This document shows positions 29,372 through 31,733 of a stretch of 64,000 bases of DNA, piece after piece (the first letter of the stretch is position 1; every line of letters begins with the position of its first letter). Both the position numbers and the translations under genes were made by a program. The notes under the pieces were generated by a model that saw nothing but the letters and a program-made list of their open reading frames with translations, was not told where the DNA came from and did not search any database. Source of the stretch: Methylomonas paludis (GTDB lineage: Bacteria; Pseudomonadota; Gammaproteobacteria; Methylococcales; Methylomonadaceae); the NCBI RefSeq assembly GCF_018734325.1, contig NZ_CP073754.1, positions 124,001-188,000 on the forward strand, written 5' to 3'.

Positions 29372-30760
29372 ATGCGCTTATCCCCACAATTATTTAGATG
29401 TAAATCGGTAGCAGCCTTTACCGCTGCAGAAAACCGTTTGAAGCAAACCTTAACGGCTAGAGATTTAATCGTATTAGGGGTGGGGGCTATTATTGGTGCC
29501 GGCATTTTTGTACTAACCGGTATAGCGGCGGCCAAATATGCCGGGCCGGCTATCATAGTGTCATTTATGCTGGCCGGCATCGCCTGTGCTTTGGCGGCAT
29601 TGTGCTACAGCGAATTGGCTGCCATGATCCCGGTATCCGGCAGTGCCTATAGTTACGCTTATGCCACCCTCGGCGAGCTGATGGCCTGGATTATAGGCTG
29701 GGACTTGGTTTTGGAATATGCGCTGGCCAGCAGCACTGTGGCCATAGGTTGGGCCGGCTATTTAACCAGTTTTTTAAATTCTGTCGGCATCCATCTGCCC
29801 GAATTCTTAACCACCGCCTATCTGGCTAATCCTGCCACTGGTTTCATAAACTTACCGGCAGCCTTAATCATATTACTACTTACCGGATTATTGATAGTCG
29901 GTATTCGCCAGTCGGCAAGCTTTAATTTCGTTATGGTACTGATAAAGCTAACCGTGATAATTGTGTTTATTATTGCCGGAAGCGGACATATTCACAGCGA
30001 AAATTGGGCAGACTTTGCCCCTTTTGGTTTTAGTGGGGTATTAACCGGTGCCGGAGTGATATTTTTTGCCTATATAGGTTTCGATGCCGTTTCCACGGCA
30101 GCTCAGGAAGCCATCAATCCCGAAAAAGATGTGCCGTTAGGCATCATCGCTTCGCTCTTGACTTGTACCCTATTGTATATCCTGGTGGCCGCAGTACTCA
30201 CCGGCATTGTTTCTTATACGCAATTAAATGTGCCTGCACCCATAGCCTTAGCCGTCGATTTTACCGGCATGTTTTGGTTGTCGCCGATTATCAAATTAGG
30301 CGCGATAGCCGGTTTAACCTCGGTTATGCTGGTGTTACTGATGGGGCAAAGTCGCATCTTTTATGCAATGTCTAAGGATAAATTATTGCCGCCGCTATTT
30401 GCCCAGGTTCATCCAAAATTTCAAACGCCGCATCTATCCACTTTACTGGTGGGCGTAGCCGTTGCACTATTGGCAGGATTCATGCCCATAGAAAAATTGG
30501 GCGAACTGGTTAGTATTGGTACTTTATTCGCTTTTGTGTTGGTTTGCGGCGGGGTTTGGGTGTTACGGGTCAGTCATCCGGAACTGCCCCGACATTTTAA
30601 ATGTCCGGCAGTGCCCTATGTGCCCTTGGCCGGTATCCTGGTATGTCTGGGCTTAATGGCAGGTTTACCGTTTGATACCTGGGTACGCTTGTTTGTCTGG
30701 TTATTACTGGGATTTGTGATTTACTTTGGCTATGGCATAAAACATAGTGAGCTGCACTAA
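29372..30760 (+). CDS. APC-superfamily amino acid permease
   Basis: 462 residues with about twelve membrane spans. The N-terminal LTARDLIVLGVGAIIGAGIFVLTG is the hallmark of the APC family. The GxGxxG-like stretch in the first span, and GWDLVLEYALASS and FFAYIGFDAVSTAAQEAINP further on, match the cationic amino acid transporter/YfnA subgroup. The substrate cannot be read from the sequence. A ribosome-binding site GGAACAGG precedes the ATG. Confidence 0.88.
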   Translation: MRLSPQLFRCKSVAAFTAAENRLKQTLTARDLIVLGVGAIIGAGIFVLTGIAAAKYAGPAIIVSFMLAGIACALAALCYSELAAMIPVSGSAYSYAYATLGELMAWIIGWDLVLEYALASSTVAIGWAGYLTSFLNSVGIHLPEFLTTAYLANPATGFINLPAALIILLLTGLLIVGIRQSASFNFVMVLIKLTVIIVFIIAGSGHIHSENWADFAPFGFSGVLTGAGVIFFAYIGFDAVSTAAQEAINPEKDVPLGIIASLLTCTLLYILVAAVLTGIVSYTQLNVPAPIALAVDFTGMFWLSPIIKLGAIAGLTSVMLVLLMGQSRIFYAMSKDKLLPPLFAQVHPKFQTPHLSTLLVGVAVALLAGFMPIEKLGELVSIGTLFAFVLVCGGVWVLRVSHPELPRHFKCPAVPYVPLAGILVCLGLMAGLPFDTWVRLFVWLLLGFVIYFGYGIKHSELH

Positions 30761-30790: not shown

Positions 30791-30810
30791 TTACACCGGG
30801 TGCGGTGTAA
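30791..30810. promoter_or_regulatory. Inverted repeat, possible operator or enhancer site
   Basis: TTACACC-N6-GGTGTAA, 7-bp arms, total 20 bp. Its centre is about 32 bases upstream of the centre of a second perfect palindrome. Both lie about 85-120 bases before a -24/-12 promoter, the usual place for enhancer-binding protein sites. Confidence 0.4.
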
Positions 30811-30822
30811 TACACACTATTG

Positions 30823-30842
30823 ATTGGTTTAATTAAACCAAT
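30823..30842. promoter_or_regulatory. Perfect 20-bp palindrome, possible enhancer site
   Basis: ATTGGTTTAATTAAACCAAT reads the same on both strands over all 20 bases. It is centred about 85 bases upstream of the -24 element at 30917. I do not recognise the binding protein. Confidence 0.5.
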
Positions 30843-30916
30843 GGCATCAGTGAAGTATTTTTTATCGAAAGCCAGTTATTCATTAACACTATGATTTTTA
30901 ATGGTAAAAAATGCTA

Positions 30917-30932
30917 TGGCACGCAAATGGCT
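30917..30932 (+). promoter_or_regulatory. Sigma54 (-24/-12) promoter
   Basis: TGGCACGCAAATGGCT: the -24 half TGGCACG is an exact match to the sigma54 consensus. GG at 30918-30919 and GC at 30930-30931 have the required ten-base spacing. A transcript would start near 30943, about 32 bases before the ATG of the small open frame at 30975. Confidence 0.65.
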
Positions 30933-30974
30933 TAATTTTAAGCGTGTACATCATCACTAAAAGAGGTGATAAAA

Positions 30975-31139
30975 ATGAACAAATCCAGTCATTGCTACAA
31001 AGATATTCTGGTTAGTTTCCTAGTGATATCAGGCGTGCTCAGTTTCATGTCCGGTGAGTTTATTATCTCCACGGCATTGTTCTGTGCTTCATCCTTATTC
31101 AGCACTATTAATTTAGGAGGTGATGCCATTCCCAGTTAA
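30975..31139 (+). CDS. Small hydrophobic protein behind a sigma54 promoter
   Basis: 54-residue frame, beginning MNKSSHCYKD. It has two short hydrophobic stretches (about residues 11-24 and 28-44) and a C-terminal GGDAIPS. AGAGGTGAT at 30962-30970 is a good ribosome-binding site. It is bounded by a strong promoter match upstream and a perfect terminator hairpin downstream, so it looks like an independent transcription unit. I do not recognise the family. It could be a membrane peptide or a translated leader of a regulatory RNA. Confidence 0.6.
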   Translation: MNKSSHCYKDILVSFLVISGVLSFMSGEFIISTALFCASSLFSTINLGGDAIPS

Positions 31140-31192
31140 TGTGTAATTTTTCTCGTTGTTAAGGCAGTTACTACTATACTGCTTACTCTACA

Positions 31193-31226
31193 GCCTCTAC
31201 CTACGCTCCAGGTAGAGGCTTTTTTT
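31193..31226 (+). terminator. Rho-independent terminator
   Basis: Perfect 10-bp stem GCCTCTACCT / AGGTAGAGGC with a 7-base loop, then seven T residues. It ends the unit carrying the 54-residue protein. Confidence 0.9.
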
Positions 31227-31526: not shown

Positions 31527-31733
31527 ATGTCTGGAATCATCGAACTCGCAATCTTGATGGTCGTCATAGCCTGTTTTGCATTTGCACCATTGGGTTATTT
31601 TATTTACCGGTATGTCGCCAAAAACGGAGAGCCGTTTGGGAATATAGAGCCTCACGGCGATAGCGAATCCGCTTTATTAAACGTGGTTGGCAAACTCATC
31701 AATAAGGTAAAAGGGTTGGTGTTAAAGAAATAA
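31527..31733 (+). CDS. Small single-span membrane protein, unknown
   Basis: 68 residues. One clear membrane segment at about residues 5-28 (IIELAILMVVIACFAFAPLG), then a polar middle and a lysine-rich amphipathic C-terminus (VGKLINKVKGLVLKK). AGAGGAGGT just before the ATG is a near-ideal Shine-Dalgarno, and a perfect terminator follows 18 bases after the stop. That makes a real, well-translated gene likely. I do not recognise it. Confidence 0.65.
   Translation: MSGIIELAILMVVIACFAFAPLGYFIYRYVAKNGEPFGNIEPHGDSESALLNVVGKLINKVKGLVLKK

Follow-up and report, generated by a model that had tools for sequence, protein, structure and literature searches.

A WatS-like membrane peptide gene of Methylomonas paludis with a sigma-54 promoter, probably part of the regulon of a putative cluster for inorganic-carbon transport

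Small peptides have been described in the methane-oxidising genus Methylomonas: the genes watS1-watS5 of Methylomonas sp. DH-1 encode about 50 residues each and had escaped annotation (Cha et al. 2023, PMC10355033). WatS1-4 are described there as mutually homologous, with a predicted transmembrane domain, and their overexpression led to higher acetate tolerance and not to cell killing. The LysR-type regulator WatR, with the ChIP-seq motif ATTGTT-N11-AACAA, represses watS and turns activator under acetate (PMC10355033). The tolerance gained from WatS1 required the WatABO pump; a test for direct binding ended in technical failure, and the authors' analogy for WatS is pump tuning in the style of AcrZ/AcrB (PMC10355033). 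Here, we analyze a stretch of 64,000 nucleotides (the window; G000:C1:124001-188000) from the 3.67 Mb, single-contig genome of Methylomonas paludis (the source genome), which contains a peptide gene very probably of this kind. The kind of peptide family is already published; what is new is a WatS-like paralog under another sigma factor and operator.

In the window, the peptide unit follows genes for a pentapeptide-repeat protein and an amino-acid permease and is followed by a small frame (31527-31733), a ThiF/MoeB-like gene on the minus strand, groES and groEL, with neighbour names assigned by eye except for the permease (PF13520). The small frame, between the peptide unit and groES, encodes 68 residues with a hydrophobic N-terminal half behind a strong AGGAGG site and has no Pfam match at E 0.001. 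The features of the locus are as follows.

29372-30760, plus strand: amino-acid permease (PF13520), the upstream neighbour, syntenic in relative L109
30791-30810, no strand: imperfect palindrome TTACACCGGGTGCGGTGTAA with 8-bp arms and a mismatched centre of 4, 31 bases past the permease stop
30823-30842, no strand: perfect 20-bp palindrome with the core GGTT-N6-AACC at 30826-30839, candidate enhancer site for an NtrC-type regulator
30917-30932, plus strand: sigma-54 -24/-12 element TGGCACGCAAATGGCT, 58 bp before the ATG
30943, plus strand: predicted transcription start, placed from the -12 GC
30962-30970, plus strand: ribosome-binding site AGAGGTGAT, from the sequence
30975-31139, plus strand: WatS-like membrane peptide of 54 residues (ATG at 30975, stop at 31137-31139)
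31162-31184, plus strand: hairpin 1 of the 3' UTR, 7 pairs, from fold prediction and covariation
31192-31226, plus strand: intrinsic terminator, an 11-pair stem (31192-31220) followed by a T tract, from fold prediction and covariation

An earlier note on this DNA had read the unit as a sigma-54 promoter with GG-N10-GC spacing ahead of a small frame with a good ribosome-binding site and a terminator, and all of these elements are found at the positions given above. It had also named a lack of codon-level conservation as a refuting result; the frame is in fact clearly constrained at the codon level. Over 47 codons, the window copy differs from its syntenic ortholog at L109 by 15, 6 and 29 changes at codon positions 1, 2 and 3 (dN 0.26, dS not computable); against a second relative, L133, dN is 0.30 and dS 1.71. 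Hydropathy averaged over 15 residues is above 1.6 where the first residue is 8-13, 15-17 or 28-29 and reaches its maximum of 2.5 at residue 11, which describes a strong segment peaking at residues 11-25 and a weaker one at about 28-43. AlphaFold predicts one helix at residues 4-48 with weak scores (mean pLDDT 74.9, pTM 0.36), and at this modest confidence one long helix and a hairpin are both possible.

The peptide had seemed unfamiliar, which is true of the databases but incomplete: it has many paralogs, and their family is very probably the one published as WatS, so that its promoter is the unusual part. The window peptide has no Pfam match up to E 10 and, as the one family member searched against NCBIfam, no match there; for 16 relatives the best Pfam E value is 0.33. 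PHROGs gives a best E of 0.068 and PDB sequences one of 0.15, and no copy is found in phage records. A search for relatives of the peptide finds it in 37/37 Methylomonas genomes with 2-10 matches each. The same search gives 40/61 genomes overall, the three non-Methylomonas matches being marginal (E 0.16-0.58). With a profile, the family is found in 144/151 genomes and 29/29 genera of the taxonomic family, in 76/151 genomes of a sample of the order, where the sole extra-family match among the matches listed is marginal (E 0.0067), and in 2/369 genomes of a sample of the class, both within the taxonomic family. Family copies also occur on two plasmids and one IMG/VR contig (L132). The plasmid copy in Methylobacter sp. 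YRD-M1 (L125 3998-4171), annotated as a hypothetical protein (WP_268121186.1), lies directly behind umuD and a Y-family polymerase and close to lexA; the other (L126) is on a plasmid of Methylomonas sp. AM2-LC.

The link to WatS comes from the upstream regions of the other copies. The WatR motif with its N11 spacer is found with at most two mismatches in 71/78 other Methylomonas copies (5.1 in shuffles) and with at most one in 56/78 (0.37 in shuffles). For the same 78 copies, spacers of N9, N10, N12 and N13 give 4, 25, 31 and 4 at up to two mismatches and zero at up to one. In other genera, 41/63 copies have the motif at up to two mismatches against 5.4, and among 30 SulP upstream regions, used as a control, it occurs in 1 (0.9 expected). 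Since most Methylomonas copies have the motif in the exact N11 register, the family is very probably WatS, judged from the motif and the published description. The palindrome TTGTTTC-N7-GAAACAA of other copies equals TTGTT-N11-AACAA and so fits the WatR motif. As the mark of a wide regulon in the source genome it was rejected, with 8 places at up to one mismatch compared with 5 in a reversed control.

At up to two mismatches, 130/148 Methylomonas copies among the matches listed have a WatR site, a count that includes the window copy. Within one mismatch, the window copy has none; its best match, with 2 of 11 mismatches, is at -156, overlapping the GGTT-N6-AACC core, and at L133 and L109 the best match has 3 mismatches. 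On the WatR operator, the window copy is therefore classed as a paralog of the site-bearing genes and not as a watS gene of the WatR regulon. Its 2-mismatch match is taken as a probable chance overlap (0.27 of 4 expected). On another reading, the window copy is an ordinary watS gene that responds to acetate, with WatR still bound to the palindrome region (ATTGATTGGTTTAATTAAACCA) despite the two mismatches; in its favour are the shared peptide family and this best match. We consider this very unlikely, given where the match lies, the 3 mismatches at L133 and L109, and that none of the promoter elements common to the other copies is seen at the window copy. A strict pattern for these elements is found in 79/145 other genus copies, 38/63 copies in other genera and 0/4 copies of the group described below, a pattern strict enough to miss 66 of the 145 genus copies as well.

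The copies also differ past the stop codon. A CCTCC within 100 bases is present in 89/145 other genus copies (18.0 in shuffles) and in 22/64 copies from other genera (7.3 in shuffles), and is absent from all four grouped copies. It is an anti-Shine-Dalgarno-like stretch ahead of a hairpin, for example at L084, L072, L159 and L036, and could act as a regulatory RNA or pair with the peptide's own ribosome-binding site. The window copy keeps the 3' hairpins. Its region 31152-31226 is predicted to fold more stably than 200/200 shuffles (z -4.4), and among 21 relatives two-sided changes occur at 3/5 counted pairs of hairpin 1 (76% of cells paired) and at 5/6 counted pairs of the terminator, with covariation scored on a structure derived from one of the compared sequences. 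An Rfam search gives 4 matches, every one under the family threshold, and the idea that the 3' region is a known RNA was therefore rejected. This structured 3' region, together with a short hydrophobic peptide in several copies per genome, could recall a type-I toxin under structured-mRNA control. We regard such a toxin as highly improbable: the family is near-universal in a bacterial family, the overexpression of WatS1-4 described above raised acetate tolerance without killing, and a consensus scan finds 2 sigma-70-like sites (3.2 expected). Both are on the sense strand and below expectation, so there is no antisense promoter signal.

The promoter itself agrees with the sigma-54 consensus at 11/12 positions, with GG at 30918-19, ten bases and GC, its -12 half being TGGC instead of TTGC, and the source genome encodes RpoN (PF00309, E 1.1e-16). 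By itself, the match is not significant in 64 kb, where 3 matches with at most one mismatch compare with 1.16 expected and 9/100 shuffles reach 3, so conservation carries the case. We compared upstream regions of 148 Methylomonas copies among the matches listed, leaving out copies with fewer than 260 bases upstream and accepting sigma-54 elements that lie from -100 to -20, agree at 9/12 positions or more and have GG and GC intact. Only 4/148 copies pass: the window copy, L109, L133 and L355. L109 (L003) lies behind the same permease and has the element TGGCATGGATTGAGCT at -52 (9/12). L133 (L004) has TGGCATGCTTATGGCT at -54 (10/12) and lies between a pilT/pilU-like cluster and dnaN (names by eye); its similarity to the window is confined to the peptide unit, so it is without the permease. 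Both keep the GGTT-N6-AACC core within one mismatch. A chance sigma-54 match, with the gene served by a different promoter or by transcription running on from the permease, would suit the numbers for the window alone, but L109 and L133 have the element at a similar position with the operator upstream, and the sigma-70 scan gives nothing above expectation that could take its place. We give this reading very little credence; the comparison with L109 and L133 backs a sigma-54 promoter ahead of a real membrane peptide.

GGTT-N6-AACC, with at most one mismatch between -260 and -60, is present in 3/4 sigma-54 copies and in 4/144 others among the matches listed (Fisher p 0.0003, for copies that are not independent). 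A tree of 136 peptides places the window copy together with L133, L109 and L078 (support 100/96, from few columns and long branches), and outside this group the operator occurs in 3/144 genus copies, compared with 9.2 in shuffles. L078, which was first picked for its operator and then placed in the group, has a -24 element without GG and so failed the strict sigma-54 rule. This copy is fast-evolving, has two overlapping GGTT-type sites and lies behind a phosphate ABC transporter cluster named by eye (L218 3486-3623 minus; G022:C28). L355 (G022:C11) has a sigma-54 element of 10/12 at -53 and no operator at up to one mismatch, and L190 (G077:C21), from another genus, has a sigma-54-like element of 9/12 at -85 and no operator; these two are possible independent promoter changes.

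The earlier note had described two 20-bp palindromes 32 bp apart and proposed both as enhancer sites. Their starts (30791 and 30823) are indeed separated by 32 bp, but only the second is perfect; with equal base frequencies, chance would give such a 20-mer about 0.06 times in 64 kb. The second palindrome also holds up as a candidate enhancer site: both close relatives retain it, and it recurs at SulP and DabA promoters. Its operator GGTTTAATTAAACC starts 91 bp 5' of the start of the -24 element. The first has no counterpart in L133, L109, L078 or L355, where 6-7 of its 16 arm positions differ, and it probably lies outside the unit. It is central to another reading, in which the sigma-54 promoter is driven by a different activator, for example NtrC under nitrogen limitation. 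NtrC binds GCACC-N5-GGTGC, which the CACC/GGTG palindrome at 30791-30810 resembles; the sigma-54 element is conserved, and the synteny with L109 includes the permease. However, the spacing at 30791-30810 is N6 and not N5, L133 is without the permease, and it is GGTT-N6-AACC that L109 and L133 keep instead. We therefore consider NtrC or a similar activator unlikely.

The GGTT-N6-AACC operator was read from the peptide loci and later found at transporter genes, its final form being set after inspection of SulP loci. At up to two mismatches, the window palindrome matches 13 loci in the source genome; most are without a sigma-54 element of at least 10/12 nearby, and 3, the window included, have one. 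Of the two besides the window, one (L205/L214) contains an operon of a histidine kinase, a cation efflux protein and an NtrC-type regulator (L214 1234-2616 minus; Response_reg, Sigma54_activat and HTH_8 in Pfam), divergent from a DUF2490 gene. A Porin_O_P gene lies close to this operon and the DUF2490 gene (L214 6706-8376 minus). At the other locus (L213/L215), a SulP gene is divergent from genes for DabA and a Proton_antipo_M protein (Pfam).

Across relatives, the kinase is found in 29/39 genomes (22/24 in the genus) and SulP in 31/39 (24/24 in the genus). The regulator adjoins the kinase or is one gene away at 26/30 kinase loci, SulP lies beside the kinase at 7/30, three of them in other families of the order, and DUF2490 adjoins SulP at 9/30 SulP loci. 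A sigma-54 element of at least 9/12 precedes SulP at 21/24 genus loci, 49-69 bp before the match start, and at 5/6 loci outside the genus, at 60-72 bp. The operator with at most one mismatch is present at 21/24 genus SulP loci (2.2 in shuffles), exactly in 14 (0.10 in shuffles), and at 4/6 loci outside the genus (0.68 in shuffles). For DabA, counted without a shuffle control and after dropping L269 for its partial DabA match, the sigma-54 element is found at 17/17 loci and the operator at 16/17, within 330 bases. Among the kinase loci of relatives, 24/30 have no sigma-54 element of at least 9/12 in the 450 bases upstream, a few of these loci lying behind SulP. We predict from these arrangements that the linked two-component system controls SulP and DabA, for which a literature search largely outside subscription journals found no report.

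By its Pfam name, DabA is a probable subunit of an inorganic-carbon transporter, and SulP proteins may carry anions besides bicarbonate. The SulP of Methylococcus capsulatus has been proposed as a bicarbonate importer (PMC11423575). From that proposal and the DabA name together, our guess is that the signal concerns inorganic carbon.

Our preferred explanation, which we hold to be likely, is that the window copy, a WatS-like paralog, has been drawn into the sigma-54 regulon of a putative cluster for inorganic-carbon transport. The peptide gene, which stands free, would have left the WatR acetate-stress regulon; it is without a WatR-type promoter and without CCTCC after its stop, and has a sigma-54 promoter and a GGTT-N6-AACC enhancer site. 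The same site also precedes SulP, DabA and, in the source genome, the kinase/regulator operon and the DUF2490 gene. The kinase would sense an inorganic-carbon condition, or a related signal such as an ion or pH, and phosphorylate the NtrC-type regulator, which would bind GGTT-N6-AACC and activate sigma-54 RNA polymerase. Its targets would be SulP, DabA, its own operon in the source genome and the peptide, which would thus be co-produced with the transporters. In the inner membrane, the peptide would adjust a transporter, as proposed for WatS1 and WatABO and known for AcrZ and AcrB; by this analogy, it probably tunes a membrane transporter.

More tentatively, WatS-like peptides may be a methanotroph-family toolkit of interchangeable transporter tuners, of which the window copy was turned to adjusting inorganic-carbon uptake (SulP or DAB) when its promoter was replaced by one under sigma-54 two-component control; we regard this wider picture as possible and rather doubtful. 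If true, this peptide would, to our knowledge, be the first case in methanotrophs of a small protein that modulates a bicarbonate transporter. A literature search, which mostly did not cover subscription journals, found no report of the promoter change or of the regulon. The peptide family, reported from one strain, now extends across almost the whole methane-oxidiser family; one copy of it appears to switch regulons by promoter replacement, and the operator and regulator proposed here offer a testable system for the transport genes through which methanotrophs probably obtain inorganic carbon.

Compared with the described systems, the window copy is closest to WatS1-WatS4, which are likewise unannotated intergenic frames of about 50 residues with a membrane segment and several homologous copies, and its relatives bear the WatR motif with precisely the N11 spacer. 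It differs from WatS1-WatS4, known here by description, in its sigma-54 promoter and different operator. With the SulP and DabA genes (PF00916, PF10070) it has the sigma-54 element and the GGTT-N6-AACC operator in common, although those genes encode transporters and the window unit a peptide. With tuners of RND pumps of the AcrZ type, it would share being a small peptide of the inner membrane for which an effect on a transporter is proposed.
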